Source: Coffea arabica
Lineage: Eukaryota; Streptophyta; Magnoliopsida; Gentianales; Rubiaceae
Assembly: GCF_036785885.1 (NCBI RefSeq)
Contig: NC_092312.1
Span: forward strand, 19,424,001 to 19,488,000
Direction of reading: 5' to 3'
DNA length: 64,000 bases
Shown here piece by piece: positions 5,324 to 64,000 of the stretch (positions within the stretch are counted from its first letter, which is position 1; each line of letters starts with the position of its first letter). Position numbers and translations under genes: made by a program. The notes below the pieces were generated by a model, which was not told the origin of the DNA, ran no database searches, and was given only the letters and a program-made list of their open reading frames with translations.

Positions 5324-8300
5324 TTAGATACCACTCCCAGCAACCATTCTAGCTGCCACAAGTCCAGCGGCTAAAGCAGTGCCAAATACAGTATGCAACC
5401 TCACACAGTAATATTTTGCCATGAAAATTTTTGTGTTGTCCTATAAAGTTGTGAATTAGATCAAACTTCAGAAGCATATCCAAGAAATTATAGAAAGGAC
5501 AGTAAACGAAGGGCCAATATTATCATAGGGAAAGAAAATGGTTCTGTGGTTCTATGTTGGGAGAGGGTTCACAAAAATGAATTCTTTTTCATTTTTTAAG
5601 GAAACAAAATGCGGCATCCATCAACTGCAAAGGTAAGGGTTGGCTTGGCAGCTGCCATAGCTGCCACACCATGTCCATCATTGCTTATGCAGTAAAATTT
5701 GGAGATCCTACCTAGAAGTACATGTCAGTGCAGTTCACTTAAACTGACGTATTGAACCCTCCATAGGTTATCACTCAACAAATTCAGTTCATGTGTGGCT
5801 ATCTCACATATATTTTTTCCAATTTTAAGACTTAAATCAATCACTCACCTGGTGATTTTCTGCCACATATCTAATTACCAATCTCCCAATTGGGACTGTT
5901 AGTCCACAAAGAATCTGAAACAAAAGGGCAACCAAATTTGAAAATTGATATGAGGAAAATCTTTTAAGCAACAATGTGAAGACAAAATTGCAGCGCACTA
6001 AAACAAAATTTGACTAATGTTATTGTCAATGGCCCTCCAAAGTAAGCTTCTCCACTTCATGAGGTGATCTGTTAGCAACAATTTTGGCTTTGTCCAAGCC
6101 TACAAGCTAATAATAAAAGGAGTTAAAACACGCTTTAAAACTCACAATGCATGTGATTGGAAGTCCGCCAAAAAGACCAAGAACAAGCAAAGATGAATAG
6201 AGAACCACCACAGCAATTTTCACCACATCAGAGCCCGCTCTGGTCCCCAGTCTAACCTGGAATAACATAGTGAGATGTGCATGATTAATTGATCCTTCAG
6301 CTTTTTCTTTTCAATGAAATTTTAATCATCATTATCAGTGCACTAACCAAAGGGGACATTTTTCCAACTGCCATATCATCCTTTACCTGGATTATTCATC
6401 ATAAGGTTAGTAGTAAAAGTACATGGAGAGGAAGGGAAGGAGGGAGAGGAGGGAGGAGAGGGAGGGAGACTACCTGATGAAAGTGACTACAGAAGAGGAT
6501 CAGACTTGTTGTTAAACCAACAAGAATTGATGCAGAAAGGACAGTGCCGGTAATTGGTAGCTCACTATCATTATACAGAATGAACTGCATAAGCAAAAGA
6601 ATTTCCATGTAGTAATTGCAGGTAAACTATACAAGTAACTACCATGTCCTGCTCTGAAGCAAATAAAAGGCAGCTGTAGCAAATGGGCCAAATGCTGCAA
6701 AGCATAAGGGTTCTCCAAGTCCCTAGTAGCTTAGCCGAAATGGAGGGCACTGCAACAAAAGTTTTTGGAAGGACGTGAGTTTTTGGACTTTCCCATGCAC
6801 AGAACAGTTGACAGGCTATAAGAAAGAGAATTGCTCCAAGATTTATTGCTTAGAATTTGTTTAGTAGATGTCCCTCACTAAGAATATGGTGAGAGAGGCT
6901 GGGGAACCTGAGATGAACATGAAGGGGTATGAATTATAACATCATGCAGTATCAACTTAAGGTTTGCAGCTCTCCTGATTAGGGTGCTCCGGAGGTACTA
7001 TAAGATGGTAAAGAGACCAAGAATTGTACATGGATGAAGTGGGTGCAGGTATGAGAACATGAAAGCACATGCATCACATAAAAAGCAAGATAAAGCCAAG
7101 AAGACCCATTGTAATCTGTAGTGCTCCTGTAGAAACAGTTTACAGGCACAATAGCTTCCATATTTGCTTTTCACAAGCCTACTCCATCTTGATCCACCTA
7201 TGTTTATTCCAATATGAATTGTTTAATTTGATGCTAGTTTAACTGGTGCAGCAAGGGATATGCATGTGCTTTGGGATTATCTAATTTCGTGCAAATTGTA
7301 CCACCTGGTATATGTACCCACAAGTGATTGCAGATGCCAGTAATAATATTGAGCGCACATTTCCTGCCTCCAAGGATGCCCAAATAAGCCCCATAAAACC
7401 CAGAATGAGTGATAAAACTGCAGCAACAAGGGTCCCTGTACGGCTTCCATCAAATAATACAGTTCCAATTAGCCAATTTAGAACAAAACTGTTTAGAGGA
7501 ATGTAGAAGACAAACTCTAACGTGCCTCCGATGTTAGAAGAGTATTTAAATAGTTAATTGTACTTTGTTAAGTTGACTCAATTGAAAAGAAAAAAGTAGC
7601 TAAGTCACTGGGGTAACGAGAATAAAACACTAAACATGAAATCTTACCTGCCCAGGATATTGACAACTGACTCTTTCTTGTTCTTATCTGCCCCTGTATC
7701 AAAGTCATAAACGTCGTTGCTGCCCATATTACACATATATAAATGAAGGGGTGAAAAGCTGTCAGCTGATATCCAAATTAAATAGATCAACTGGTGATAT
7801 GCTAACAAAGAGCATATCAACCAAATGACAGGAAAGAGAGATAAAGTAACAGATAAGAAGGATGGAGAAAACTTTAATGAACTTGACAACCTCACTCTAT
7901 TCTTTGATCAAGGAACAGAGATTACAAAACTAGAGAACCTCATTTCTATGTTCAAAAATCCTTAGCTGCAACAACTTCCAACCCCTGAGGGGATGCTTCC
8001 TATTAACTAAATGGAGTTGATTTTTCCTTTTCTAGTCTGACATATTACAGCAATTAACTCCAAAACTTTTTTTTCCCTTTTCATCTTTTGATCAATATTT
8101 GTACAATAAATTTATTGACATTTATTAGAATGGAAGAGATACCAATCTGAATCCTAAAAGATTAAGCATCTAACCTTAAGTTGAGCCAAGTGATGATAAG
8201 AGCTGACGAGGCCAAGAGAACAACAAAACGCCCAGAAGAAAACAGGCCTGTCTGCAAATATGCAGCTGCACTTGCTACCTATTTGCAGTAATAGCAGCAT

Positions 8301-9692
8301 ATTATAAAGAAGCTAGTAATTAAGTGTTATACAATAGACGTTTGTTGTTGACTGACTGAATGTTCCAAATAATCCTACACTAACAAATATGCGGAAAATT
8401 AATCATTTCAACAGGAGAGCTCACTCTCTCGCACTAGAACTACTATTAAGTCCAAAACAGCACGTTTTTGAATTCCCAGGCCGAAGTTGAGAGAGCAGTT
8501 AATAGTGCTATGTGCCTAAAAGAAGTTAAAGAAAATAATCCTATCATTAAAAGTCAGATAAAAGCTAAGGAAACAAAAGTTATAACTGCCATGCAATGAT
8601 ACTTACAGCTAGTGGAATCAAGGCAACAGAATAAATTGGTAACTTGATCGCCCTCCATATTATGGTTGCTCTAGGAGTGTCATCTTTTTCCTCTTCAATG
8701 ATAGTATCAGACGTACTCTGGAAAAAGGTTTTCCATTGTTGCCTTTGCTGCTTTACTGCAAGTTGCATTATGCTGGGCTGGTGACATGTTTTAGGGCACT
8801 TGCAGAACCAGGGCCTTCTTATGTTTCCAGACAAGGAAGGCACTGGACAGAATCTGCAATAAATTTTGTTTAAGATGGTATATAAATGAGGAATGTTTTC
8901 CATCTTGTGCCTTCTGCTGACTCTAATTGACTCCTTGACTGGCCATAAAGCTAGTAGCCCTCTTCTCACCCAGAGTAATAGATAAATCCTGCACTACCTC
9001 TTTAGCAATGACAATAAACCTGAATCTGATTTGAGCAGGTTACTAAAGCTAAGAAAGACAGGAAGCCAATACTTCCTTGACAATATAACCTTCATCATAG
9101 TAGTTTGTAGGTGTAGCCTAGAGTAATGTGTAACTATCATTGTGCTTGTCCTTCAGTTGAATCACTCTCTGTATCTGATATTTCGTTTCCTTTAAAAATT
9201 GAAAGAAAGAACAGCTGAGATCAACTAGAAGATTAGGTAGGAAACCAAGTTAGGTGTTTTATTATCATTCTCTAAGCATCTTGCTCAAAAAGCTTTAGTA
9301 AAAGTTAGCAAGTGCCATAAACAAAAACACTAAGCAACATTGATCGAACAATTTGGGGTGTTGGTGTTACAACCTCTCTCTCTAAACTCCCCCCCCCCCC
9401 CCCCCCAACACAACCCACTTTTTTTTTTTTTTCTCTGTTGGTGGTTGCCAAAATTTAGGTGACAATGTCCAAGCTAGCAGTGAGCTTAACAACCTGAAAG
9501 AAGTCTTTTTTATTTCAAATTTTGCATCATATGAACATGTTGTAGCACAAAATATATGAGAAATTACATTTGAAAAGGGTGAACAAAGAAATATAAGTGG
9601 ACTTGCCTTGTACTGTTGTCTCTGTAAAGAAAGTGATTGTTGAGTTTGTTGAGGCCAAAAGCGCGGTTCGGGTAACAGAATGTAGCTGCCAT
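5324..9692 (-). CDS. ABC4: 2-carboxy-1,4-naphthoquinone phytyltransferase (ABC4/MenA), plastid; reading frame interrupted by an in-frame TAG
   Basis: This is a UbiA-family prenyltransferase that attaches the phytyl chain to the naphthoquinone ring in phylloquinone (vitamin K1, photosystem I) synthesis in the plastid. The model has 11 exons: 9692-9607, 8853-8607, 8278-8175, 7719-7648, 7443-7305, 6749-6643, 6564-6474, 6386-6348, 6256-6146, 5914-5849 and 5440-5324, or 393 codons including the stop. The start ATG at 9692 opens a transit-peptide-like N-terminus (MAATFCYPNRAFGLNK). Diagnostic segments are WRAIKLPIYSVALIPLAV, the Asp-rich NDVYDFDTGADKNK, SRTGTLVAAVLSL, LFCSHFHQ, DDMAVGKMSPL, VRLGTRAGSD and DNTKIFMAKYYCVRLH. 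Two oddities were seen. Intron 1 has a GC donor (AAG|GCAAGT). Exon 6 reads CPPFRLSY-TAG-GLGEPLCF, where family members have Gln. The exon 6/7 junction is the least certain: only the weak acceptor TGATAG|TGAGC (78-nt intron) keeps phase. Identity is firm; whether this copy is functional is open. Confidence 0.88.
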
Positions 9693-11591: not shown

Positions 11592-12099
11592 AGCATTCCC
11601 AAGGATACGAGGGAGTATAGAGTTACACTAGAGTGGAAATTCGGACACTGACCAATCTGTTTAATGGTCTAAATAGCTAAACTCCTCTCACAAATCTGTA
11701 ACATCCCTTGACAATTTCTTGATCTGTCAAGGGCAGCATCGCCAGCCGCTTGTCCCAAGCCCGTGTTCCTCGAACAACGCCACAAAGTTGAATATATCAA
11801 TCGTAGCAACTGGATTTTGTTTGACACTCTGACAAGAATAATGTCTCGTGGCTTTTGGACCCTCTGAACTACGCTAGCATCCATTCTCCACAGACAAATC
11901 TTGCGTCTCTGCCCTGTCTCCTGGGACGGGAACCACGGGGGAAAAGCGCCGTCCATACAATACATGAAGTTGTTTGTTCATTTCCCCCGAGGCTTAACTT
12001 AGCTAACATAGTAGTAATATACTAGCTAGCTTTAAATGCCAGCATCCCTTTTGCAGTGTATCACAATTCTGACATTTTCAACCACAATTTTGATTCTTC

Positions 12100-15000
12100 A
12101 TGGCTTATCCAATTTGCAAGGATTCGCGTGCACACCTGCCCGACCTTGAACAATGTGAAAAGGATGCGCTTGATGTTGAAACAGTTGATTTTGTTGCAGG
12201 AGGAGCACAATATGGTTTTCATGGGAGAGGAGTATACTTGACGTGGAAGGACGTTTGGGTGACAGTTTCCAATGTAAAAGAAGGCACCAAATCCTTTCTG
12301 CAAGGACTTAATGGTTATGCAACTCCCGGTCAGCTCCTAGCGATCATGGGTCCTTCTGGTTGTGGCAAATCAACTCTTCTGGATGCGGCAAATCAACTCT
12401 TCTGGATGCATTGTCTGGTAAAACAACAACTTAAAACTTTTTATTTTATTTTCTTTATACTTGTACTTGAACGTCAGCTCCTATTAAAAAGCCTGTTAAT
12501 TTTTTAACAGCACTGTCCATTAGAAAACTTAGCAACCGGACTGAATCTTTTGTAATTTTCTCCATTGGCGCAATATGGAAACTTGAATAATCATGGCCAA
12601 TCTGTTGATGTAGTGTTTTCCCATTCGAGGTTTTTCCTTTTATGTTCTAAACTTCCAATGTGTTGTTCATTTACATAGGTTTCTGGATGTGTAATCTTGA
12701 TTTCGTGCCACCCCAAAATGCAGCTGTTAATTTCCTCTCTGTACTTCGCATAACAAGTCCAAATCCTGGTTTCCACAAAATTCTGTCCCATTAATGTCCC
12801 TTTTCAAGTGTTTCAGTAGAAATTTTGGAATTTACTAGCAGAAACTGTCAACTCTTTCAGGGAGGCTAGGCACAAAGATGAAGCGGTGTGGCGAAATTCT
12901 GATTAATGGCCGACAACAAGAGCTTGCATATGGGACATCGGTATTTGCTCTTCTCCGCTGTTATCTTACAATGCCAATTACAAAACCACTCTAGTTCTAA
13001 CTTTTGCTATCACTTTTAGCCACTAAAGTTAAATTCTTGGTCTATGGAGATGAAAATTAAGAGCAGCTGCGCACGCGGATTTGGGTGATAATCATTGACA
13101 TCTATGCAAGAGCCAAAACATACTGAAATCAGATAAATAAATTGTTCCCAGAGACCATTTTATCACTTCTGTTGATGGCAGAAGAAAGTCAGATTCACAT
13201 CATGATTGACTACATGAATGGAGATGAACCCTGTTCCTTCTACTTGATTGGTAGAAAGGGGAAACCTTCTATACCTCTGGGATCACAGGAGCTCTTTCTT
13301 GCCATTCTCATTACTTAATCCTGATGGGATGTTTTCCCCCCTTCCTTGCTAGAAACCTGAGTTCGAGGGCGCAAATATAATGTAATTAATAAAATTGGGG
13401 CTCCTCAAGTTTTCAATTGGCCATAAAAATCACTTATAGCTAAAAGTACTATAAAATCTGTAATTCATTACCTTGTGCTTCTTTTAGGCCTACGTGACTG
13501 ATAATGACATCCTAACATGGACATTGACCGTTAGAGAAGCTGTCTACTATTCTGCTAACCTCCAACTGCCAAATGCAATGTCGAGATCAGAGAAAAAAGA
13601 GAGAGCAGAGAGAACGATAAGGGAAATGGGATTGCTTCCTTGCTTTGATACTAGAATTGGAGGCTGGGGCATTAAAGGCCTCAGTAACGGGCAAAAGAGG
13701 AGAGTGAGCATTTGCATGGAAATTTTGACGCGACCCAAGCTTCTCTTCCTTGATGAGCCAACAAGTGGACTCGACAGTGCTGCTGCATACTGTATTGTAA
13801 ATAGAATTGTTAGACTGGCTCGGCATTATGGGATGACTGTGGTAGCATCTTTGCATCAACCTAGCAGTGAAGCCTTCAAGCTCCTTGACAATCTTTGCCT
13901 CCTCTGTTTGGGTAGGACAATATACTTTGGACCTGCCTATGCTGCAAATCAGGTGAGTACAATATCCTAGAATTGTTAAACTGGCTCAGTGCCCCAGTAT
14001 CTTAGCTGACTTTGCTTTCTGAAGTTGAGATGTGAAATCCGTTTGAGTTGACTGATTTTTGCCTGCTTCAGTTTTTTGCAGGGAATGGCTTTCCATGTCC
14101 TGCTCTCCAGAATCCAGCAGATCATTATCTGAGGATGGTCAACAGTGATTTCAGTGAGGTACTTAGCCAGTTAACTTCACCCTTAGCCACTGCATAGAGC
14201 TTAAAGCTGTTCCAGGCCGGAGGTTGGGTTGACTCCCCTTTCCCACTTCCCCTTGTACGTTGTCATTTAGGTATCTGGTAATTGAATATAATGTGAAACC
14301 ATTTTAGGACATTCAATACGGTGCTGGAGGAAAGACAACCACAAGGGAAGTAATTGATATGCTGGCAGAATCTTATAGATCGTCTGATGCCTATAAAGAT
14401 ATCCTGAGACAAGCGGCAGAGATGGATAAACAAGTAAGCCACTTGAACTGATGGAAGACCTGAAGCAAAAGAAAAGCTTGCGCGATGTTTATTAACAATT
14501 GAATATTCTTTGACATGCTAAATTTCTCATTTATGAGGTGCAGAGCACTGGTACGATGGAGAAGAAGGGGAGCCCCGCAAGCTTCTTTATACACTGCCTC
14601 GTCCTCATTGAAAGGTCATTTCTGAATATGTACCGTGATGTAGGGTACTACTGGTTGCGCCTTGGTATAAACATTGCATTAGGTTTTGGGTTGGGTACCG
14701 TGTTCCATAATGTTGGAAACAGTTACAGCTCCATCAATGTAAGTTCAATCATCAATGTTTCTATTGACTAGGTAGGAGTTTCACGCCATGAATTTTTAAT
14801 GTTCTCAGATATTCACGTTTCCCATTTTTGTTTAGGCCAGAGGTTCTATGCTTATGTTTGTAGCATCGTTATTAACCATCATGGCTATTGGAGGGTTCCC
14901 ATCAGTTGTGGAGGACATAAAGGTTAGACCATTCATTTTATTATCAACTTTATGATCTCCCGGAACAATCTGTTGGATATGTTTTGCCTAATTAACATGT

Positions 15001-15601
15001 GTAGGTCTTCAAGCGTGAAAGATTAAATGGGCATTACGGTGTTGCAGCATTTGTTGTCAGCAATACAGTTTCTTCACTTCCTTTCTTGCTCCTAATATCT
15101 ATGATTCCTGGAGCAATTTCTTATTACCTTGTTGGACTTCAGCAGGGAAGTGACAGGTTTTTGTACTTCATAATGGTACTCATTGCATGTCTTATGTTGG
15201 TTGAGACCCTTGTGATGATTGTGGCGACCATAGTGCCAAATTTCCTCATGGGACTCATCACCGGTGCTGGACTTCAAGGTTTAATGATGTTAAGCGGCGG
15301 TTTCTTTCGACTTCCAAGTGATTTACCAAAGATTTTTTGGAAATATCCGATGTACTACATTGCCTTTCATAAGTATGCATATCAAGGACTATACAAGAAT
15401 GAATTCCAAGGGCTAGCATTTCCCAAAAATCTGTTGGCCGGAGGATCTTCTAATCTGGTAGATGGTGAAACTATTTTGAGGGATATCTGGCAGGTGGAGA
15501 TGGGTTACTCCAAGTGGATTGATCTGGAAATCTTATTTGGAATGGTGATATTGTACAGACTCTTACTCTTTGGGGCTATCAAGATTGCAGAAAAGTTTTA
15601 A
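12100..15601 (+). pseudogene. ABCG half-size ABC transporter, copy A; frameshifted in Walker A by a 23-bp duplication
   Basis: Copy A has the ABCG order: nucleotide-binding domain, then a six-helix membrane domain. Its coding exons are 12100-12417, 12861-12940, 13488-13952, 14072-14158, 14308-14433, 14544-14738, 14836-14922 and 15005-15601. Exons 2 to 7 (80, 465, 87, 126, 195 and 87 nt) match copy B exactly in size. In exon 1 a perfect 23-bp repeat (12364-12386 and 12387-12409) follows GPSGC, inside the Walker A codons. It shifts the frame, and translation would stop at a TAG just after entering exon 2, at about 107 residues. Downstream exons remain open: YVTDND, Walker [37 protein letters not shown]. 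The signature motif reads LSNGQKRR, not LSGGQKRR. The C-terminus (IAEKF) is about 14 residues shorter than copy B. The good state of the other exons suggests a recent lesion, or an assembly artefact. Confidence 0.88.
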
Positions 15602-18078: not shown

Positions 18079-18134
18079 ATCCTCAAAACTCCAATATTCC
18101 TAGCTAGCTCCCCTAGTCCCGAAACTACTTCAGC

Positions 18135-21100
18135 ATGGCTTGTCCAAATCTCGCCTCCCCATCTCGTCTTAGCAACGACGACTGTGCTGATGTGCTGATG
18201 AATTCGCCACATACTACTGTTTCAGAAATCAAGATTCCATTAGAGGTGGATGGAGATCATGAAGATGGAAAGGAAAATGCTGGTCCAGATTACTGTAAAT
18301 CTAACTCAAACAGCAAAGGCGTGTTTTTAACGTGGGACGACTTGTGGGTTAGTGTTCCTAATGGTAAGAAGGGGTGTAAAGCGATCCTTCAAGGGCTCAC
18401 GGGCTATGCACGTCCAGGTGAACTTTTAGCCATTATGGGTCCTTCTGGCTGTGGCAAGTCCACGCTGCTTGATGCTCTAGCAGGTGCTACGAGTCTTTTG
18501 CTCAATCTTTTACGTGCCAGAATTCACATGTTTCCTTGTTATATATCTCAAAACAATTACTCCCTCTAGGCTAGAAAAATTGGTATGCAGGGAGACATCC
18601 AACATCTACTTGCTTTGAAAGAACTTACATTTATACCAACTACTTCAGGCTTTTTAAAACCTCAGTCTGCAAGGCATCAAAACTTGGTCCTCGTAATCTA
18701 GATGGAAATACTAATGGCTTGGCCAAAACCCAATTAGATTGTCCTTTTCTTAGGCCTTAAATAACAAATATGGCAGGGGATTTTGTGGCATGAAACCCAG
18801 ACTAAAGTTCTTTCCAACTCTGTATGGTGGTATGCTTGTTTCAGGAAGGCTTGATTCAATATCAAAGCAAAGGGGGGAAATTTTAGTTAACGGCCGAATG
18901 CAACAGCTAGCTTATGGAACGTCGGTATGACCAATTTAATACTTCTTCTTCACCACGCTTTCAGCATGAGGCAATATATAGTAATGATGCACCACGCTTT
19001 CACCATGCTTATAGTAATGATGCATGAGGCAATACATTCTGACTAACAAACAAACGCACACCGTTTACCAGATTTATACGTGCCGAAGTCTGAAATTCTT
19101 TCCTGTCAGATTGGCTGATTTGATTGTCTTAAACATCATGATGTATTTTTATGTGGGATTTTTCTAGACACTTGTTACTACAATTAAATCGCATCCACCT
19201 ACCATATAAGTTATGCAAAACACAAAATAATATTATTGATTACTACTCTATCTTGCATTTATAGCTCCATCAACATCTGAATTGTATCTTCGGGCACTCT
19301 TAAGATAGAAAATTATCGATAATAACTTGGAATTTGAATCCAAACAAAAAAAGTAAAATAATTATACTTCATTTAATTATGGCATTTATGGGAGGGGGAA
19401 AGGGGAGCCACCCTCAAAAATTTTACAAATCTTTTTGTATTTCCTTAAAAGTTTATTAAAGTTTTCGCTTTTGTCTTTGTACAAATTAGACTTTGACCCC
19501 CCAAGATTTTTGGAAATACTTGTACATCCGTTTTCAATATTAAATATTTTCATGTATATCCTTAAAAAATTAGACTTTGCCCCCCGAGGTTTTTATGAAT
19601 CATTCCAGATTTTGGAAGGCGTGATTATAATCAAAATACAAAGAAATTTAGTAACAGATTTCTTGAAAGTTCTATATGTACGAGTCTTACCAAATGATAC
19701 TTTTTCTGTATTAAAGAAAAAGGATCTCTAAATGTATAGCCCTGTATAATCTTTTTCTTTTTTCAGGCTTATGTGACTCAAGACAATATCCTGACATGGA
19801 CTTTAACCACAAGAGAAGCTGTATACTACTCCGCTCAGCTCCAACTGCCTAACACTATGTCAAAGGCAGAGAAAATAGACAGAGCAGACAGGACGATCAG
19901 GGAAATGGGATTGCAGAGTTGTATTGACACCAGAATTGGAGGCTGGGGAAGCAAAGGTCTCAGCGGTGGACAGAAAAGGAGAGTAAGCATTTGCATTGAA
20001 ATGTTGACGCGACCGAAGCTTCTTTTCCTGGATGAGCCGACAAGTGGACTCGATAGTGCTGCTTCATACTATGTCATGAATCGAATTGTTGAACTTGCCA
20101 AGGAATATGGGATGACAGTAATAGCATCAATGCATCAGCCTAGTACAGAAGTCTGCAACCTACTTGACAACCTTTGTCTCCTTTCCTTAGGTAGGACCAT
20201 ATACTTTGGGCCTTCCTTTGCAGCAAGTCAGGTGAGTATGATTAGTGTTGGACTTTGGTTTTTGGTTGCTTTGATCTGAGAGAAAATAGTTATTGCGGAT
20301 GACTAATTTTTGTTGTCAATTTAGTTTTTTACAAGGAATGGTTTCTCTTGCCCTGGTCTACAAAATCCAGCCGATCACTATATAAGAATGATAAACACAG
20401 ATTTCGATGAGGTAAGTGTATAACAGCCCTTTTCTAAGTTATGCAGCACTCCTCTATAGTATATGGGGTGTCAAGCTTATAATTTCGGTAAACATCGAAA
20501 CCATGTGTAGGACATTGAGTCAGCTGCTGAAGGAAAGACCACCACAAGGGAGGCGATCGATAAGCTTGTCGATTCTTACACATCATCTGATATATATAAC
20601 CTGACCCTGAGTGTAGTAGCACAGATAAATGGACAAGTAAGCTCTCCTGAACAAGCTAGAAGCGATAGTATATGAAAGTTTGAGCAACTCCTTTTACATT
20701 CTTCAATATGTTAAACCTTAAAAATGCAAATGTTGAATTAATGTATTGTAGCAACTTCGAGTGATGGCGAAGAAGAGGAGACGTGCTAGCTTCTTTATGC
20801 AGTGCCTTGTCCTGACAGAGAGGTCATTTGTGAATATGTACCGTGACCTAGGCTACTACTGGCTACGTCTTGCTATATACATCACTTTAGCTTTTGGCTT
20901 AGGTACCGTCTTCTACAATGTTGGAAACAGTTACAACTCCATTAATGTAAGCCAAATCTTTCGTATGCATTTAGCAGTTTTTCTAATTTTACTTCCCCCT
21001 GCATCCATATTCTACTATTTGGAAATGCTTGTTACCATTTTGTTCAGGCAAGAGCCTCAATGCTCATGTTTGTAGCATCATTATTGACTCTCTTGAGTAT

Positions 21101-21860
21101 TGGAGGTTTCCCATCATTTGTGGAGGAAATAAAGGTCAGAAGAACATTCATTTTTTGCTCTATTTCTGTCACAGAACAACCATCCTGATTAATTTTGTGA
21201 AGTAAATGCATACAGGTTTTTCAACGAGAAAGATTGAATGGGCACTACGGGGTTGCAGCATTTGTTATTAGCAACACAGTTTCATCAGTTCTCTTCCTGT
21301 TCCTCATAGCTGTCATTCCCGGAGTGATTGCTTATTATCTGGTAGGACTGCACCGGGGAACTGAAAGATTTCTCTACTTCACTATGGTACTCTTTGCTTC
21401 TATTGTGTTGGTTGAAGGCCTCATGATGATTGTAGCAAGTTTGGTACCAAATTTCCTAATGGGATTGATTATTGGGGCTGGTACTCAAGGTGTAATGATG
21501 CTGAGTGGCGGTTTCTTTCGTTTACCAGATGATCTGCCAAAAATATTTTGGAAATATCCAATCTACTACATTTCCTTCCATAGGTATGCATATCAAGGCC
21601 TATACAAGAACGAGTTTGAAGGGCTGAAATTTCCCAGTAATGAGTTGATGATGGGTGGATCTTCTCTGATTGATGGTGAAACTATTTTGAGAGATACATG
21701 GCAAGTTGAGAGGGGCTACTCCAAGTGGATTGATCTGGCAATCTTGTTTCTAATGGTGATCATATACAGGCTCTTATTCTTCGGGATAATCAAAGTAAGA
21801 GAAAGCATTAAACCTCTGGTCAAACGTTTTCACCTGGGGCTTTCGTATAAGAAAGAATGA
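18135..21860 (+). CDS. ABCG (WBC) half-size ABC transporter, copy B, intact
   Basis: This is a plasma-membrane-type half-transporter that should act as a dimer. It resembles the ABCG11/12/13/15 clade, whose members export cuticular lipids; the substrate here is unknown. Exons are 18135-18483, 18845-18924, 19767-20231, 20325-20411, 20511-20636, 20752-20946, 21048-21134 and 21216-21860, giving 677 residues with every junction GT-AG and in phase. A variable N-terminal tail of about 60 residues leads to VFLTWDDLWVSV. Walker A GPSGCGKS is at about residues 102-109, the Q-loop at YVTQDN (about 144), signature LSGGQKRR at about 208, Walker [14 protein letters not shown] (Asp about 232) and the H-loop His at about 266. 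The membrane domain follows from about residue 385: [75 protein letters not shown]. The C-terminal tail is basic (KRFHLGLSYKKE). It is the middle copy of the tandem array. Confidence 0.95.
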
Positions 21861-41290: not shown

Positions 41291-41300
41291 CTATAAGTAT
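41291..41300 (+). promoter_or_regulatory. candidate TATA box of ABCG copy C
   Basis: CTATAAGTAT lies 78-87 bp before the likely start codon at 41378 and about 10 bp after the hAT element. A transcription start about 30 bp downstream would give a 5' leader of about 50 nt. This rests on consensus and position alone. Confidence 0.45.
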
Positions 41301-41377
41301 CACTTGCGCTAGTACGTATTTTGCAGCATTCCAAGCAAACTGCAAGCGCACATTCCGCCATTTTTCTTCTTTCGAGC

Positions 41378-44300
41378 ATGGCTTCCAATAATTGCACCAC
41401 CCCACCTCCAGATGACAACCATGAGCTGAGTCATAGTGTTTTAGAAATCGAAAACCCATCCCCATCAGAAGTTAAGACGAGTTTTAGGGAAATGCAAAAC
41501 CAAGGAGAAGGAAATCACGGCCTTACAGACCAAACCCATTCCAGCAGGAGAGGGGTTTTTCTGACTTGGAAGGACTTATGGGTCACGGTCTCCAATGGGA
41601 AAAAAAGTAGCAGATGCATCCTTCAAGGGCTGACGGGCTATGCCCGTCCCGGTGAACTTTTAGCCATTATGGGTCCTTCTGGCTGCGGCAAATCAACACT
41701 TCTTGATGCATTAGCAGGTACTACATATATAAATCGTCTCAAATTATTCTCTCTGTTACTGCAATCTTGAACTCTGCAGGGTATTCCTCTCTGCGCATAC
41801 AAACATGGATCCAATCCAACACCATTATATTATATAAATTACGGGGAGTTTGCTCTGGAAGACAATTTAAATTCATTATTAACGTGAATATATGGAGGCA
41901 CTTTTCAAGCAAATCCACATTCTCGTGGTATAAAAAAATGGATTTGCAGTTGCACTTATCTGGGCACACTCTTCCTGAATCTCTCCCAACACAGCCACAC
42001 CCACACCCACACCCACACCCATTCCGTTTCTTTCTTTTGTCTTTAGGATGAGAATTTTAGCAGATAATATGGTGCTCGAGGAGTTAGACGTTATGTGTCG
42101 GAGCAAAAAAAACACCCTGCCTGATTTTTCTGAGCAAGACACCGTTCGTTTTCTCGACATGGTGAACTACTCCCAAAGCTTTCATGCAATACCAAATATT
42201 CACACGATAAAATCCGAGGGATTTTGCTTCCATTTTTCCTTTCCTTCATTCCCAACAATTAATCATCTTTTTGTCCCAAGTTCTTTTAACCTTGTGTCTG
42301 GTTTTGCGTCTGCTTTAGAAAATCAACTATATGAGTTACATTAACATATTGATCCGTGACTTGAAAAATCAATTAGGGGGACGAAAGCACAAGAATCACA
42401 GATCAATAAACACGTCACATCAATGATGGGTTCCCTAATTTGGCATCTTCACACTTTGTCGCGATTACGCCTACTAAATATGGTGACCAAAGGTGACACC
42501 GTGACAATGCATTGAATTTATCTTACATCGATTGTGAAAAAGGCGTGGTGGGATGAGAAAGCCACTGGCACCATGACAACCCCTCTCAATAGACATTCAA
42601 ATGAAATGAAATGTTGTCCCAACCTAGTACCCGGCGGATGACAGCGATGATGTACGGGGCGAGATTGCTGTTGCGTTTAATCAAATATAAACGCGCGTAT
42701 CCGGCGAACTTAAAACGTTGAAAATTCAATTTTTATACATAAGAACTTAAAAAACAGTTCAAGGTCAATTGTTTTTATGTTATGATGATCAAGTTGTTGG
42801 TTTTGAAAATCAACTTGTGTTTAATCCATGAAGTTGTACAATTTCTGTGAGTATAGGAAGGCTGGACTCGAACACGGGGCAGAGTGGTGATATCTTGGTC
42901 AATGGTCGTAGACAAGCACTGGCCTACGGAACTTCTGTAAGATTTTCCATTCTCTGATTTTTACCTGGTCATTGTAGTCCGATGTTTGTTGAACTCAACT
43001 CAGAGCCACACAATGGCATCATCGTTAATAGTTACACCTGCCAAATGATAAATGTCCCGATTTTTTTTTTTTTTTTTTTAAAGTGGAAGGATTTGAGGTA
43101 TAACTTTCTATTTACAGTTCAACCCATTATAATTACTGGTACAAATTGGTCAAAGCAGTTGTTAAATGCATGAACTTGGACTCTAGAAGTCAATTGGACT
43201 CTTAATTAAGTATTAATTGTCAAGCTCCCCAACCCTACGCTTCCCCGCAGCTCAAATTATTTATTACTAAGTAGTATAAGTTAGTCAAAATAGCTGTTAA
43301 ACACATGACCTTAGATGCTACGTACGAGTCAATTAGAGTATTAATTGAGTATTAGCCAATGCGAAAGGTCAGGAGAAAAGAAACCTACTACAACCTAAAG
43401 TTGAAGAAAGCATCCAAAACAACAGATGAGACAACAAATTATTAAGTAGCATTTACAAGACTCGGCTAAAGCCAAGGTTAAAAAAAAAAAAAACCTAATT
43501 AAACTTTGACCATTTATTCTTGGTTAAAAATACTTGGACAAAAGCTAATTAACGATGATAGAGAGGAAAATGATTAAACCTTCTTAACCTGAAGTGTACA
43601 TATATTAATTTAGCTTGTTAATTTGGATGCATATATAACACAAGACTTTTGCAGCACAGCACTGTAATTCTCTCCTTGCAACAACGTCTTTACACTGTCA
43701 ATTTAAGAAAGATTAACTTTTAAAGAGGAAAAAAAAAAATCAAGCTACCAGTCGACTAGTCTGCAAATTTTGAACTATATTATCAAGAAAAGTACTCGCA
43801 AGGTAAGATTAAGAGTTTAAGACTGATCAAGTTTATTTCTTCTCAAATTTTTGGTAAAATCAGGCCTATGTGACTCAAGATGACGCATTGATTGCCACCT
43901 TAACTGTAAAAGAGGCTGTGTACTATTCTGCTCAACTTCAGCTGCCAAATTCCATGCCCAAGTCGGAGAAAAAGGAGAGAGCTGAAATGACCATAAGAGA
44001 GATGGGGTTGCAAGATGCAATGAACACGAGAGTCGGAGGATGGGGGCAAAAGGGACTTAGCGGCGGACAAAAGAGGAGACTCAGCATTTGCATCGAGATA
44101 CTGACTCGCCCAAAGCTTCTCTTCCTTGATGAACCAACGAGCGGACTTGACAGTGCCGCTTCATATTATGTTATGAGCAGAATTGCAAGACAGCGGGCAG
44201 GAAAGACCATTTTAGCATCCATTCATCAGCCGAGTGCTGAAGTTTTCAGCCTATTTCAGAACGTCTGTCTATTGTCTTCGGGGAGAACTATATATTTTGG

Positions 44301-46251
44301 CCCAACGAATGCAGCCAATGGGGTGAGTGAGATTATACCCATATATTATCGTTTTTATGAGGTTGGGATTATCGGAAGTGGAGCTCAAATATGTTTATAA
44401 ACATGCTTGTAAGATACAATTCCAGTTGCAATTCCGACAGAGAGCCAAATGCAGAGAAATAGTAATTGCAGATTATCTTTGAGGTATAACCAACTAGGAA
44501 TGATTAATCTTCCAAGCTTTCTCTTGCTGCAGTTTTTTGCATCGAATGGTTTTCCCTGCCCAACTCTCCAAAATCCATCTGATCACTTCCTGAAGACTAT
44601 AAACACCGACTTTGATGAGGTATGTCAAATATAAAGACAATGAATTCTTTATCTTCTTTTAGTTTATGGAATATGTAATGTCCTTGAATCCATGTTTAAT
44701 TCTTCCTTAATTAATTTGACTTACGAAGCTAAGGGTTTAATTTGGAGGGTCTTGACAGGATATCGAAGAGGGCTCAACTGGAAAGATGCGAACGGAGGAA
44801 GTCATCAGCATTCTTATTGAGTCCTATAAATCATCCATTAACTACCAAGAAGTTCAGAGGCAGGTTGATGAAATATGCAGTGAGGTGAGGACACATTCAT
44901 TTTTAATCTCTCTTTCTTCTTCTTTCTTTTTCCTTTTCGTTGTAGTCTTTTCAAAATTTCACAAGTAACACACAACATGTCGAAGGCCTCCAATCAAATT
45001 CAAAACTTGTTTCGTGTAAGTAATTAGTTGTAATAAGCATTTATCACGTACCTGCAGAATGGGGAAGAACTAGAGAAAAGGAGAGACAATGCCAACTTCA
45101 TCAGTCAATGCAGCGTTCTGACAAGAAGATCATCCGTAAACATGTTTAGAGATCTTGGATATTACTGGATGCGCCTGGTAGTCTACACCGTACTGGCTCT
45201 TGGTATCGGAACCATCTATTACGATGTTGGCAGTGGCAAAAGCTATAATTCCATTCAGGTATGAAATTAGGAATTATGCCGTTAAAATTTAAAGCCACAA
45301 TGGAAAACAACAGTAATGCAGGTTCTTTCTAACCAGTCAATTAAGCCTAAACAATTTTCGCTATTTTTCAGGCAAGAGGTTCAATGCTCATGTTTGTGGC
45401 TTCATTCCTAACTTTCATGGCTATAGGTGGATTCCCTTCATTCGTAGAGGAAATGAAGGTATAATACACTTATTGTCTAGAAAATCAAAGATCAACATAC
45501 AAATATTATAATTACTCTGAGAAAGGCATATTGACTTCCACAACCAATAACTTAACAGGTGTTTCAACGAGAAAGATTGAATGGCCACTATGATTCTAGT
45601 GCTTTTGTTATTGGCAACATTGTGTCTGCACTGCCATACTTGCTACTAGTTTCGCTGATTCCAGGATCGATCGCTTATTATCTTGCTGGACTTGAGAAAG
45701 GAGTTGGACCTGGAGAAGCATTTGAACATTTTATTTATTTCTGTACCATTCTCTTCGTTTCCATGATGTTGGTTGAGAGCCTGATGATGATTGTTGCAAG
45801 CGTTGTCCCTAATTTCCTCATGGGAATCATAGTTGGCGCCGGAATCCAAGGCCTGATGATTCTAAGCGGCGGGTTCTTCCGCTATCCAAACGATTTGCCA
45901 GCACCATTCTGGAAATACCCACTCTACTACATTGCCTTCCACAAGTATGCATATCAAGGTCTATACAAGAGTGAGTTCGAAGGCCGAACCTTTTACCGTC
46001 CTGGAGAAAACCTTCCAACGCTCAGCGGTGAAAGCATCTTGCGAAATACTTGGCAAGTTGAAATGACGTACTCCAAGTGGGTGGACATTGCCATTTTGTT
46101 TGGAATGGTTGTTGTATATCGCTCGCTCTTCTGGCTTATTGTCAAGGTTGGTGAAAAGGTTAGGCCTGTTTTAAGAGCATTGACGTCTGTTCAACCACAG
46201 AAGGCCAGGCAAGTAATGTCAGCAAATGATCCGGCGGAGCTTCTACAGTGA
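41378..46251 (+). CDS. ABCG (WBC) half-size ABC transporter, copy C, intact
   Basis: This is a third paralogue with the same eight-exon layout: 41378-41717, 42857-42936, 43864-44322, 44533-44619, 44759-44884, 45058-45258, 45372-45458 and 45559-46251, giving 690 residues with all junctions GT-AG and in phase. The ATG at 41378 ([14 protein letters not shown]) is preferred over the upstream one at 41321, because it fits the TATA position and the N-termini of the other copies. Walker A GPSGCGKS is at about residues 99-106, YVTQDD at about 142, LSGGQKRR at about 205, [13 protein letters not shown] (Asp about 229) and [10 protein letters not shown] (His about 261). The membrane domain has [61 protein letters not shown] and [13 protein letters not shown]. 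It differs from copies A and B by two codons fewer in exon 3, two more in exon 6, an insertion [13 protein letters not shown] in a loop of exon 8 and a longer C-terminal tail. It is therefore the most diverged copy. Substrate unknown. Confidence 0.95.
41995..42020. repeat. (CCCACA)n microsatellite in intron 1 of ABCG copy C
   Basis: About four tandem CCACAC hexamers occur in the first intron of ABCG copy C. Confidence 0.85.
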
Positions 46252-55310: not shown

Positions 55311-56599
55311 GCTAATATTTCTTTTTGTTATTTTTAAAAAAAGAATAAGCGAAAATTAGTTATACATGAAACAAGTTTATTAATTTTTGAGTTCTTTTTG
55401 GATTATATATTGATATATTGATTGGTTATGCACTAAGTAATAGTTAAAAGCCTTGAAAATGGGAAGCTTTGAAAGTTTGAGTGTTTAAAACCATTAATTA
55501 GTTTAGTTGGTTTTACACTAATGTGCATTAGGAGAGAAACAGAATGATGTAAAAGATAATTAATAGATGACTTATTAATAGATAATATAAATAAAATAGC
55601 TCGCTATTAAGCATTATGCAAATTTTCTTTTAAAAAAATTGCATTCCACTTGACAGAATGTATAGTAAAAATTGGGTTTATGTAGGTGCTTCATTATTCT
55701 GGAAAAAGAAAATTGGTTGCATCTTAAATAGGTGTGTTAATTATTTTTTAATTTTTCCAACCACATCTTTATTTCACATACATGATATCATGGAAGTTTC
55801 TAGAGTATGGATAGCAACTTTTTCCAAAAGAAAAAATTCGCTTGCATCATGAACACATTTTTCAATTCATTTTTTTATATTGTCAATCACCTTTTTATCT
55901 CACATCATAAAAATTGTTACAGTAATTATTCCAAATAATTATTTGGGATACTCTATCGAAACAAAAGTCAAGTTGAGCCTTATTATGCATAAAAAAGAAA
56001 AAAAAAAAGTTGATCCTTATTACTGTAAATTGTATCTTAATAGACTAAGGTCTTGTTTGATAACGTAATTCATCACTTAAAATTAATGTATTTAGATCTT
56101 AATATATTCAGACACGTTTGATAACAAAAAATTGAACATCTGAATTAATTAAGTGCCACTAAATTTTCTAAGTAAAATTTGCTTACAAAAATAAGTGATA
56201 AGTTATTCACTTATCGCTAAATGTCATATACACTCAAATATATTTAATTTAATATTTAAGAGTTCAATAACATAATGGATTCATATTTCAATTTGTAAAT
56301 TTTAATTTTATCAAATGCACACTAAGAAGTAATTGAGAAGGAATTTTTTAATAAAAAATTATGTCCAACAGAGATGACATTAAAATAATCATTTGAAAAA
56401 CCCTCAAGTTTGAGGTTGTATTTTTCTTTTTGATATATACCATAAACCGTAAAATGTAACTGTGGAAAAGGATGTGAATAATCTAAGCTAAAATCTATGC
56501 TAATTGCTAAGATTTTCGTTTTCCGTTCCTTTTTTTTTTTGTTTTTTTAATTAGTCTTCTTTCTGATCCTTTACCAGTCCAAATCTCAGGACAGAAGCA
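55311..56599. other. AT-rich region with dispersed-repeat copies
   Basis: Sequence at about 56050-56330 is an inverted relative of the repeats at 22275-22550 and 49815-50015: TTTGATAACAAAAAATTGAA, CATCTGAATTAATTAAGTG, AAATTTGCTTACAAAA. The part at 55640-55925 contains copies related to the TGTGAGATAAAAAGGTGATTG family, in inverted orientation. No gene is recognised. Confidence 0.5.
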
Positions 56600-57078
56600 A
56601 TGGCTCAGGCGCTGACAACCACCATCACAGTGGCGGACGTGACCTGCAACTCAAACGTCCCAAGCGCCTTCCTCCACCCTGCAGCCACTAAACCCACTTT
56701 ACTGTCCTCTTTCCCGTTCAACTCTTTTCCCCGTAGAAAATTCAATGCCAAGCCCATCTCAGCCGTGGCCACAACACCACCAGCCCAGAAGGATTGGAGG
56801 CCAGATAGCTGGAAATCCAAAACAGCGTTTCAGCTCCCAGAATATCCGGATAAATCTGATCTTGAATCAGTTCTAAAGATCCTTGAATCCTTCCCTCCTA
56901 TAGTTTTTGCAGGGGAAGCTAGAAACCTCGAAGAAAAGCTCGGCCAGGCTGCACTTGGGAACGCTTTTTTATTGCAGGGTGGTGATTGCGCTGAGAGCTT
57001 TAAAGAATTCAATGCCAATAATATTAGGGACACTTTCAGAGTCATTCTGCAGATGGGGGTTGTGCTCATGTCTGGTGC
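56600..57078 (+). pseudogene. N-terminal fragment of plastid DAHP synthase (class II), truncated
   Basis: The intact enzyme condenses phosphoenolpyruvate and erythrose-4-phosphate, the entry step of the shikimate pathway. The ATG at 56600 opens a plastid transit peptide ([17 protein letters not shown]..., Ser/Thr/Pro-rich, about 60 residues). The conserved start of the mature protein follows: [73 protein letters not shown]. At that point family members continue FGGQMPVIKVGRMAGQF, but here the sequence reads [11 protein letters not shown] and all similarity ends. About 160 of an expected 500-plus residues are present, and the remaining 480 bp before the EXORDIUM-like gene has no further exons. 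It contains no stops before the break, so it may be a fairly recent partial duplication, possibly Helitron cargo. Confidence 0.85.
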
Positions 57079-57560
57079 AAAAGAGGACATATGCATATTT
57101 TTTATTAAGAGCAATTTCAAGGCTTCTTTTTATGGACACCGGACTTAAACAGCACTTAATACAGTCCTATAATAATCAACCTTCCTTTCATATTTTACTA
57201 AGATATATGATCATAGTACTGATCATAATTACTACTGGTAGTGGTATCACTTAATTTACCCCTCTATTGCAATTTTCACATTTTTCTTTTTCATGCTTCT
57301 AGTAATGGTGATGAATATACACGTCACGTCACACAAAACAACAAAACCACTTCTCCGGCCAGCAGCAGCACCCAAAGCTGGCCTCATTCCAAATTTCAAA
57401 AACCATTCTGCGACCGTGTATCTACATAAAAAGTACGGCTGCCACACCTCATAATAACATAATTTCCATTTACCCATCCATCCATCCATCATCAACTCTC
57501 TTTTTTTTTTTTCCGGGTTGGGTTGGGTCGGGTCGGGTTCATCAATCATCACAATCACAG

Positions 57561-58472
57561 TCAAACCAGTGTCGAGCAGGCAGAGCTCTGGGGGTCCCAT
57601 ATAGCCGGCAGCAAGAACTTGCGACCATTCACCCCGTTCGCATTGTAACTCGCCCCGCTGGCCTTATCCACCAGCAAGTTACCCGGGTAGCCCGGGTAAG
57701 ACCCCGACCCGAACATCCCCGTACACGCCGACACGGCCTCTAACGGCGCCGTTGCTGGGCCCTGGAAATACCCGCTGTTGTACGGATTCGTAACGGCTCC
57801 CGCCAAAACCGTGGCCAAGTTTATTACCATGCCGTCCACTCCGACGTCTCCGTTGGGCGCCACCAGCGGAGGAGTCTGGGGACCGTACAGCGGCTGGTGG
57901 AAAGGCCAGGCGCACTGCCCCGGGCACTGAGTCTCCGAGTTACCAACCCAGGCATATGCAAACCGAGCCGGGCCCCGAGTCGAGCCGTGCGTCCCGCACC
58001 TGCTGCAGAACCCGTCCACGTAAACGTCCGCCGACGTCAAAACAACGTTAATGGAACCAGCCATGTGGCCCCCTCTGGCAGCCAAATAAACGAGATTCGA
58101 GTTCTTGAGCATTTTTCCGAGAGAGTAGTTCTCGTCGAGAATCTGCTTCCCCACGACCAGCGTGGAGGCGCCACCGCCCTTGTACTTCTCGGTCGTCATC
58201 CACCAGGAGGCGGCGGAGGGAGAAGCCGCCCTGGGGGAGTTAAGGGATTGAAGAAAATCGACAATAATGGAGCGCTGGGTGGGCGTAAACTTGCCGTACC
58301 AGATGAGGTTGACGGTGATTTTACCTTTGAGAAGAATACCGTTATGGTATTGGAGGACCAGGGGCTGCTGTTGGACCAAGGCCGCGGAAGCCGGTTCAGA
58401 TATGAGAGTGGATAAGAAGATGGTACTAGCGAAGAACAGAAGAGTACCACAAGTAGTAGAAGAAGAAGCCAT
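57561..58472 (-). CDS. EXORDIUM-like (phosphate-induced protein 1 family) secreted protein
   Basis: The family is apoplastic. Arabidopsis EXO and EXL proteins are linked to brassinosteroid-promoted growth and to responses to low carbon; the biochemical activity is not known. This is an intronless frame of 303 residues, near the usual family length. It starts with a signal peptide (residues 1-30, hydrophobic [14 protein letters not shown], cleavage likely after PASA). Family landmarks follow: [50 protein letters not shown], a Cys-containing block [96 protein letters not shown] and the C-terminal [21 protein letters not shown]. All expected cysteine blocks are present, and no lesion is seen. 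Codon use is GC-rich compared with the window. A plausible TATA box lies about 110 bp upstream. Confidence 0.95.
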
Positions 58473-58574
58473 TGTTGTACTGCTATTCTTGATATTATTA
58501 TTATTTTTTTGTGTTTTTTTGGGACAGAGTTAAGAAAGAAGGCTCTGCTGCGGGTTTGAGAGGAGGATGTAGCA

Positions 58575-61500: not shown

Positions 61501-64000
61501 AGGTAAAATTTCAAACTCGTCGCGGTCATAATAATTAGATTTTTGCTACCCTCGTGCGCTCGATTGATTATTCAATTCTGAATCACTCAAGCGTAACATA
61601 TTTTCCAACCTTTCTCGTGATTGCATGACATATTTTCATTTTTTTTTAAAAATTTTACTTAAACAGTATACCACAAATTCTGTTTGACCATTTGATTTAG
61701 GAACATTGGGCTTTCTTGCTGGTAAAAGGTGAAGAATGTACAAACTTTTGAAGTGGCATGTTTGAATGCTTGTGAATAAAGCCGGATGGAGGTAGGCACG
61801 AAAAGCATTTCATTATATATAGTAGTGTATACTCCCAAAGTCCACAGACTTGGCTTGTAATTGTCGCCCTTCAAAATTCGACCATGAATAAAAAATCACG
61901 TGTCCGTGTGCGTGTGGAGGTGGTGAAGTGAGGCGTCGTCGGCAATCTGAGGCTGGTCAAATTTGGACGAATCAAACTTATCTAATCACCTTTGCACCAG
62001 TCCAACATCAACCCCCGGTGGCCGGTGGGGGCCCCTATTAGTATTAGTGTATGATTTGGCGTTGTTCTTCTTCTTTTGACTTAAATGCTGGGCCCCTCTG
62101 GTTCTGATCTCACCGGTGATTAAACTAGCGGCAGCCACGTGTAAAACTAAACACCCCCTCCTTAAGGCTCAGCCAGTATCTGTGGCGCATTGCATGCTCT
62201 GCCAATCTGCTGCTACAATTTGCAGCAGGGGATAAGATAAGCTTCAGCTTCAAGTTCTGTGCTAAAAGTATGTAATGGGAATCAAGAATTAATTGAAGAA
62301 GAAGCACTGCTTCTTTTTTTTGCCAAAATGTATCAGCTAAACAGGCTTGTGATTGCTGACAAAAAGGCAAATTTTGCTGCCTCCCAATATCAGTAGCTTT
62401 GACATTTTACTGACTTACTCTTTTAGTTTTGTGGTCCAACTCCGATCAATTATTGTCCACCCAAAAACTTAGCGGTGTTTGGCCTGCAATTTTGTGTAAG
62501 AACGTGAAACGCATTTCTCAATCACCACGTTGTTGACTAATCGGCGTAAACGACGAATACCCAAAAGGGCATTTTCTTTCCCTGTCAATTACTCCGTCCA
62601 TCGGAAAGGGGTGCAAGAATTGCCATTACAATTGTTATAATCGCGTCCAACGCAATTGGTTAATAGAAAGTAAATTGCCGTTTGTAATCGGTGGATAATG
62701 ACAAAACAACCTTCTTTATAAAAAGTAAATTTAACATTCCGACTCTGAATGATGCAGGTTCTCTAGTAGTAGTAGTAGTCTCCACGCTCAGAGCAAACAG
62801 TCGTTTTTTTTTTTTAAAAAAAAAAAAACAATTTTTATTTAAAAGTGAATTTAACTTTGCGTAAAAATGAAGGAAAAACTCACCTCAACAGGTAGCCCGT
62901 GAGAGCTTATCCTCTCTTTATCTTATTGCGCTTTTCAATTGTCAGCGAATCACATCTCATAATTGGAGAGACAATTATGACAAACTCCTAAGACTAACAA
63001 GAGATGAGATAGCACAGTGAAAGTGACCTTGAAGGCCTTTTATCCGCTAAAAATGATCGATTAAGAGAGTATGTTGGATCAACAATGATGGAGCTCTCAA
63101 GTCGGTTGTTTGCATCAAGTGTCAACTACTAGGTGTTAAAACATACTTATCACTCATTAAACTACTAATCCTCATTAGTATAAAATTTGCATCAAATCCC
63201 GCTCAATACCAGAGCCATAGATTCTAGTAATGCTGGAAAAAAGGATTGATCAGGTCAGGAGCCCGTGGAGGCAGGTAGCTTTAACGTTTTCATGGTGGAA
63301 AACAGTTGTTGTCCATAAATGCGAGTTGTGTTCATGTAACTGGTTTTGAGCCATCAATGGGTGAGAGCGGCACACAGCCTAGAGTCGTGCAGTTCAGGCC
63401 CATCAAATTATTTAGCTAGCTAACGTTTAAGTGTTTGGATTATGATGAATCTTTACGACGATAATGTGATAAAGATAAACTTCTACAATATGTAGTATGC
63501 TGTTTTTTAATATGTAGCATGCTGCATTCAAATCTCAAGCATGACAAATGGAAAAAAAAAAAAAAAAAAAAAGGATGGGTTTGCCTAATAAACTTCAAAA
63601 GAGTGTGTTTGGACGGGAGATTATTTGTCCGAATTTATTTGCTTATATCATCATTGCGATTTTCAATATATTTTTTTATTTTTTTAATTATTTATATATA
63701 TATATATAGTAGTCATTTTGGTGGGGCTGAGAGAGAGAGAGAGGGTGGGGGTGGGAAAGGAGTGTCAAGGAATAAGGACGTGATAATCAACCGTACCAAG
63801 ACATAACATCTACCAGAATTTTGAGGCAGATTGATGAAGTAATCAAACGACAAGAGTATCCGAATAATAGAGTAAGGGGTCAACACTCCTATCTACAAAA
63901 TTTGTAGCATGATTTTTGAGAGCTCCTCTTCGATTTGATGCCCATCATTCTCCCTCCCAGACGTCTCTTTTCTTGACAAAATGGCCATATCATGTACATG
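58591..64000. other. intergenic, no gene recognised
   Basis: Diverged copies of the GATGTGATGTATG.GAGATAAAA repeat family lie near 59130-59290 (inverted, partly), 60750-60900 and 61280-61400. Simple repeats include CT at 58975-58993, a T12-A13 junction near 62804-62828, an A run at 63551-63572, TA at 63692-63708 and GA at 63728-63742. The minus-strand frame at 60077-60391 (104 codons, proline-rich, with PYRILDSPLPTQNKDMYPF) is the only one that looks somewhat protein-like. I do not recognise it and do not call it a gene. Confidence 0.5.

Follow-up and report, generated by a model that had tools for sequence, protein, structure and literature searches.

A premature stop codon in one of two ABC4/MenA copies of Coffea arabica probably reflects the recent loss of one homeolog

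Coffea arabica is an allotetraploid (2n=4x=44), the polyploidy of which has been dated to 350-610 ka, and the HiFi assembly of its di-haploid ET-39 (1,198 Mb, 132 scaffolds, N50 53.7 Mb) anchors 1,192 Mb and has 93.6% of BUSCO genes duplicated, with about 5% back in a diploid state; genes were lost mainly by being excised, singly or several together (PMC11018527). Loss of a MenA duplicate has been described in the Lamiales, where MenA1 and MenA2 arose by a lineage-specific duplication with relocalised products and phylloquinone can still be made after the loss of one copy (PMC8133638). The consequences of phylloquinone deficiency are severe, as ics mutations kill rice at the seedling stage and the mutants have been likened to the Arabidopsis pha, aae14, and abc4 mutants (PMC11624176). 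Premature stops themselves are common, with 27,813 among 1,135 genomes of Arabidopsis thaliana (PMC7878030). Here, we analyzed a stretch of 64,000 nucleotides of C. arabica (the window), which lies on the chromosome-scale contig called C3 and carries an ABC4/MenA gene with an in-frame stop codon; a collinear copy lies on its partner, C4. As in the homeolog losses described for C. arabica (PMC11018527), one subgenome copy appears to be disabled with the other kept, but here the gene has not been excised and is complete apart from a nonsense point mutation. As in the Lamiales, MenA is duplicated and one copy seems dispensable, but the C. arabica copies are most likely a subgenome pair with 94-97% DNA identity (PMC8133638). 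We consider it highly probable that a recent nonsense mutation silenced the C3 homeolog in the allotetraploid and that the C4 copy supplies phylloquinone. In the literature, no paper on the C3 lesion was found, as judged by titles.

The C3 gene was modeled with a coding sequence of 1,179 nt in 11 exons, specifying 392 residues (Table 1). Its ten introns all end in AG and nine of them start with GT, the GC start of intron 1 (9607, - strand) being common to the C3 and C4 copies. Exon 6 reads CPPFRLSY, stop, and then GLGEPLCFAAFGPF, and MenA homology continues in the same frame on either side of the TAG at 6725-6723. Thus, the in-frame stop that an earlier sequence-only reading had noticed is real, and it is the only one, as the 1,179-nt coding sequence of the model contains no other internal stop or frameshift. 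That reading had also taken the ten other exons to be open and in phase. They are open, but being in phase depends on the start of exon 7, for which two acceptors compete: the one at 6584 gives an intron of 58 nt and scores higher in the acceptor matrix (3.2) but shifts the frame, and the one at 6564 gives an intron of 78 nt, scores 1.7, and keeps the frame.

Table 1. Coordinates of the features within the window (a slash marks a splice boundary).
Feature	Position	Strand	Remarks
ABC4/MenA (2-carboxy-1,4-naphthoquinone phytyltransferase) gene, C3 copy	5324..9692	-	11 coding exons; homology, TIGR02235, PF01040
Exon 1 of C3 ABC4	9607..9692	-	start ATG at 9692; GC donor CAAG/gcaagt
Exon 6 of C3 ABC4	6643..6749	-	107 nt, carries the stop; acceptor gttgcag/TGC, donor CATG/gtagtt
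Premature TAG	6723..6725	-	codon 225 of 392; Gln codon in C4 copy
Proposed alternative acceptor TAG/G	6722..6725	-	first exon base 6722; in frame, drops CPPFRLSY and stop (27 nt)
Competing exon 7 acceptors of C3 ABC4	6564..6584	-	first exon base 6584 or 6564
Normal TAA stop of C3 ABC4	5324..5326	-	5-nt deletion at this place in C4 copy
ABCG half-transporter, first copy	12094-15601	+	aligned exon blocks
ABCG half-transporter, second copy	18117-21860	+	aligned exon blocks
ABCG half-transporter, third copy	41297-46251	+	aligned exon blocks
ORF with first part of class II DAHP synthase	56567-57148	+	profile positions 1-99 of 438
Intronless EXORDIUM-like (Phi_1) ORF	57561-58529	-	profile search

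With X placed at the stop, the C3 protein scored 273.7 bits against the plant and cyanobacterial MenA family TIGR02235 (menA_cyano-plnt; curated cut-off, 225) and 87.1 bits against the UbiA domain PF01040, so that it shares with the plant ABC4/MenA proteins an above-cut-off score and the UbiA domain. It also shares with them NDVYDFDTG and VKDDMAVGK, which we take to be the two Asp-rich motifs of the UbiA type; both are encoded by the C3 exons and kept in relatives, the second lying after the stop. It differs from these proteins in that its reading frame stops at codon 225, and the 224-residue product ended by the TAG scored only 123.8 against TIGR02235, which is below the cut-off. On the basis of its sequence, the C3 gene is classed as a disabled member of the family because the TAG breaks its open reading frame.

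A DNA search of the genome with the whole gene returned three match rows that represent two loci, C3 itself and, on the same strand, C4 (C4:19377827-19381759, 97%; C4:19382119-19382597, 94%). The protein-level search gave 18 matches at E <= 0.001, nine at each of the two loci. No third ABC4 locus was detected among the best candidates that these DNA and protein searches scored, tblastn found no second ABC4 within the 64-kb window, and a search of viral contigs found no stray plant relatives. There may be a very diverged third copy in the genome, because the searches score best candidates and neither ABC4 locus is among the 21 matches listed in the PF01040 search. In the C4 copy, exons 1-10 equal those of C3 in length, the splice-site dinucleotides are kept, codon 225 is a Gln codon, and there are no internal stops. 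Three further proposals of the sequence-only reading were borne out: that a second copy exists, in a polyploid or duplicated locus; that the residue at the TAG is Gln, as in the Arabidopsis protein; and that a single-base change could explain the nonsense codon. A 5-nt deletion in the C4 copy removes the normal stop, giving a protein that is six residues longer and ends in ...GSGILKRILP (L093, C4:19376500-19384500); this tail is presumed to be harmless. The two copies differ at 18 of 1174 exon positions and 76 of 3172 intron positions. A comparison of 391 codons gave 10 synonymous differences and 7 others, one of the latter being the nonsense change, which corresponds to a pS of 3.6% and a pN/pS of 0.22; this ratio suggests that both copies have been under constraint for most of their separation.

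To assess the conservation of the block hit by the stop, we used the best 80 of 269 cyanobacterial MenA relatives, which were found with a two-sequence alignment, a single-protein query having found nothing. These 80 loci came via two patterns, one of which covers GYxYQxPP, and the conservation of those residues is therefore partly due to selection. The nine-residue block, CPPFRLSY and the stop position, aligned without gaps in all 80, and PPFR and the Tyr were invariant (80/80), the pattern having covered PP. In GLGE, both G residues and the E were also invariant in the 80, and L was present in 76. The stop position itself was occupied by Gln in 59, in agreement with the sequence-only reading, and otherwise by L (10), K (8), H (2), or Y (1). 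Among the 288 nine-residue windows, the block ranked 11th for conservation. In the predicted structure of one cyanobacterial relative (L005; mean pLDDT, 92.1), TM4 spans 104-120 and TM5 132-153, and the block corresponds to residues 121-129 of the connector between them (121-131). The sole solved relative in a profile search with 19 sequences was UBIAD1 (8djk, E 1.5e-17); two designed armadillo chains, which had outranked it in a single-protein search of the PDB, were gone in the profile search. UBIAD1 residues K181, G186, and L188 presumably lie in the counterpart of the TM4-TM5 connector, and we did not use them as evidence. In the portion of PMC9314443 drawn on here, these three residues are not mentioned, and the disease mutations of UBIAD1 are placed in L2-3, in Hx6-7, or in the lining of the active-site cavity, with the TM4-TM5 connector not singled out.

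The sequence-only reading had also suggested that TACTAG/GGACTT is itself used as a splice acceptor (first exon base 6722), which would remove the stop and leave a C3 enzyme nine residues shorter. Such an option does exist, as this AG preserves the frame, the resulting 383-aa product contains no stop and scores 236.7 bits, above the TIGR02235 cut-off, and the site scores 3.3, within the spread of the gene's ten acceptors (-6.0 to 6.2), in a matrix that was built on nine sites, too few for the score alone to exclude use of this AG. However, the normal acceptor, which scores 6.0, directly follows a stretch of 36 nt that is free of AG, whereas the AG at 6722 comes after two others, that of the normal acceptor included, and lies 27 nt further on. 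The deletion would cost 37 bits in TIGR02235 and nine of the eleven residues of the TM4-TM5 connector in the modeled relative, including the PPFR and Tyr that are invariant and free of gaps in the 80 relatives. Moreover, the same AG is present in the C4 copy, so the site was not created by the mutation, and the open C4 twin makes a rescue needless. It is thus very unlikely that this acceptor is functionally used, and still less likely that some active, nine-residue-shorter enzyme is made from C3 by bypassing the nonsense codon through the in-frame downstream acceptor. Two forms of exon skipping were also rejected, because the frame is lost if only exon 6 is skipped and is kept, at the cost of 66 residues, if exons 6 and 7 are skipped together. 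A further AG at 6815 (- strand), upstream of exon 6 (attctctttcttatag/C), scores 6.9 vs 6.0 for the normal acceptor; it is in frame, adds 66 nt, and leaves the stop in the message.

The two copies could alternatively be alleles of a heterozygous diploid, with a recessive null on one haplotype. They are collinear on a pair of chromosomes of near-equal length (76.9 and 77.3 Mb), and an identity of 94-97% would also suit a phased diploid. However, the assembly that contains the window has 1,197,963,845 bases in 131 contigs with an N50 of 53.74 Mb, and 99.0% of it (1,185.6 Mb) is held by 22 contigs (C1-C22), so that its size, N50, and chromosome number agree with the di-haploid allotetraploid C. 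arabica. Small differences from the published ET-39 assembly are seen in the count of sequences (131 contigs vs 132 scaffolds) and in the chromosome-scale total (1,185.6 Mb vs 1,192 Mb anchored). Contigs paired by number also differ in length by 1-27%, the pairing of genes being shown for C3/C4 and C7/C8 only. Similar to the ABC4 pair, three further UbiA locus pairs of this genome have identities of 93.6%, 95.8%, and 97.0%. If the assembly is that of ET-39, as we infer, the copies are homeologs, because a di-haploid carries no allele pair. Accordingly, the C3 and C4 copies are most likely homeologs, and an allelic relationship is highly improbable. The 95.8% identical UbiA pair (G000:C11:63480434 and G000:C13:144420; same strand) has its first member at a chromosome end and its second at a chromosome start, unlike the C3/C4 and C7/C8 pairs, which sit at matching positions.

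ABC4 is not the only gene of the window with a lesion. The ABCG gene at 12.1-15.6 kb contains a perfect 23-bp tandem duplication (12364-12409, + strand), which lies in the P-loop exon and shifts the frame; its C4 counterpart has a single 23-bp unit, and the duplication probably marks another recent gene loss in C3. Two genes of the window, ABC4 and ABCG, thus carry lesions private to C3, from which we claim no chromosome-wide trend. The second and third ABCG copies have no stop inside their aligned exon blocks, with the exception of one at a block edge in the second copy, which was taken to be outside the exon. Either the DAHP synthase ORF is followed by a very long intron or it represents a fragment of a gene; a search with a single query sequence found no further exon of it up to position 64000.

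An error in the consensus or assembly at 6725, which would leave both ABC4 copies intact, was also considered. A single base is at stake, and another private coding lesion lies nearby, in the ABCG gene. However, isolated substitution errors are rare in a PacBio HiFi assembly of a di-haploid, such as the one that the present assembly matches, and the ABCG lesion is a duplication of 23 bp and involves no substitution, making an error very doubtful. Programmed stop-codon readthrough to a full-length C3 protein has a negligible probability, since, even though the variable residue at the stop position in relatives (Q, L, K, H, or Y) suggests tolerance of an amino acid inserted there, the context TAG-GGA-CTT differs from the TMV-type signal TAG-CAR-YYA, the 83 nt past the stop fold no better than shuffled sequences (z = +1.28), and the twin copy makes readthrough needless.

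We return to the silencing of the C3 homeolog by a nonsense mutation and to its age. With a disabling lesion, an open relative, and few other lesions, the C3 gene fits a young pseudogene. If it had been null since the split of the parental species, 2.6-4.8 further lesions would be expected, and if it had been null since the polyploidy (350-610 ka), 0.02-0.23; the observed number is 0. These expectations assume a mutation rate of 7e-9 and a generation time of 5 years, or of 21 years as given in PMC11018527. The loss is therefore probably recent and post-polyploid, as far as the sequence indicates. An older loss is disfavored, and only to this degree, because the chance of zero lesions at an expectation of 2.6 is still about 7%.

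Taken together, a single transition most likely turned the Gln codon 225 of the C3 gene into TAG. The C3 product would then comprise only 224 residues and lack both the second Asp-rich motif and the remaining membrane domain, and the C3 message is a probable target of nonsense-mediated decay, because five exon junctions lie past the stop, so that we infer the silence of the C3 gene at the protein level. Judged from its open exons, the C4 copy is most likely the sole supplier of the enzyme and would be sufficient as such. The C3 copy is then probably a very young pseudogene, representing an early step in the gene-by-gene loss of duplicates that presumably followed polyploidy.

The C3 stop is, in this respect, ordinary duplicate-gene decay after genome doubling. 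The presence of the twin copy matters because phylloquinone synthesis is vital, and the view of ABC4 as a required gene is unchallenged by the nonsense codon in C3. ABC4 is normally an indispensable gene with a link to photosynthesis, and it has probably been captured here at the very start of the loss of one homeolog. In that case, the plant's phylloquinone depends on C4 alone, which would be relevant to the editing or mapping of ABC4 in Arabica coffee.
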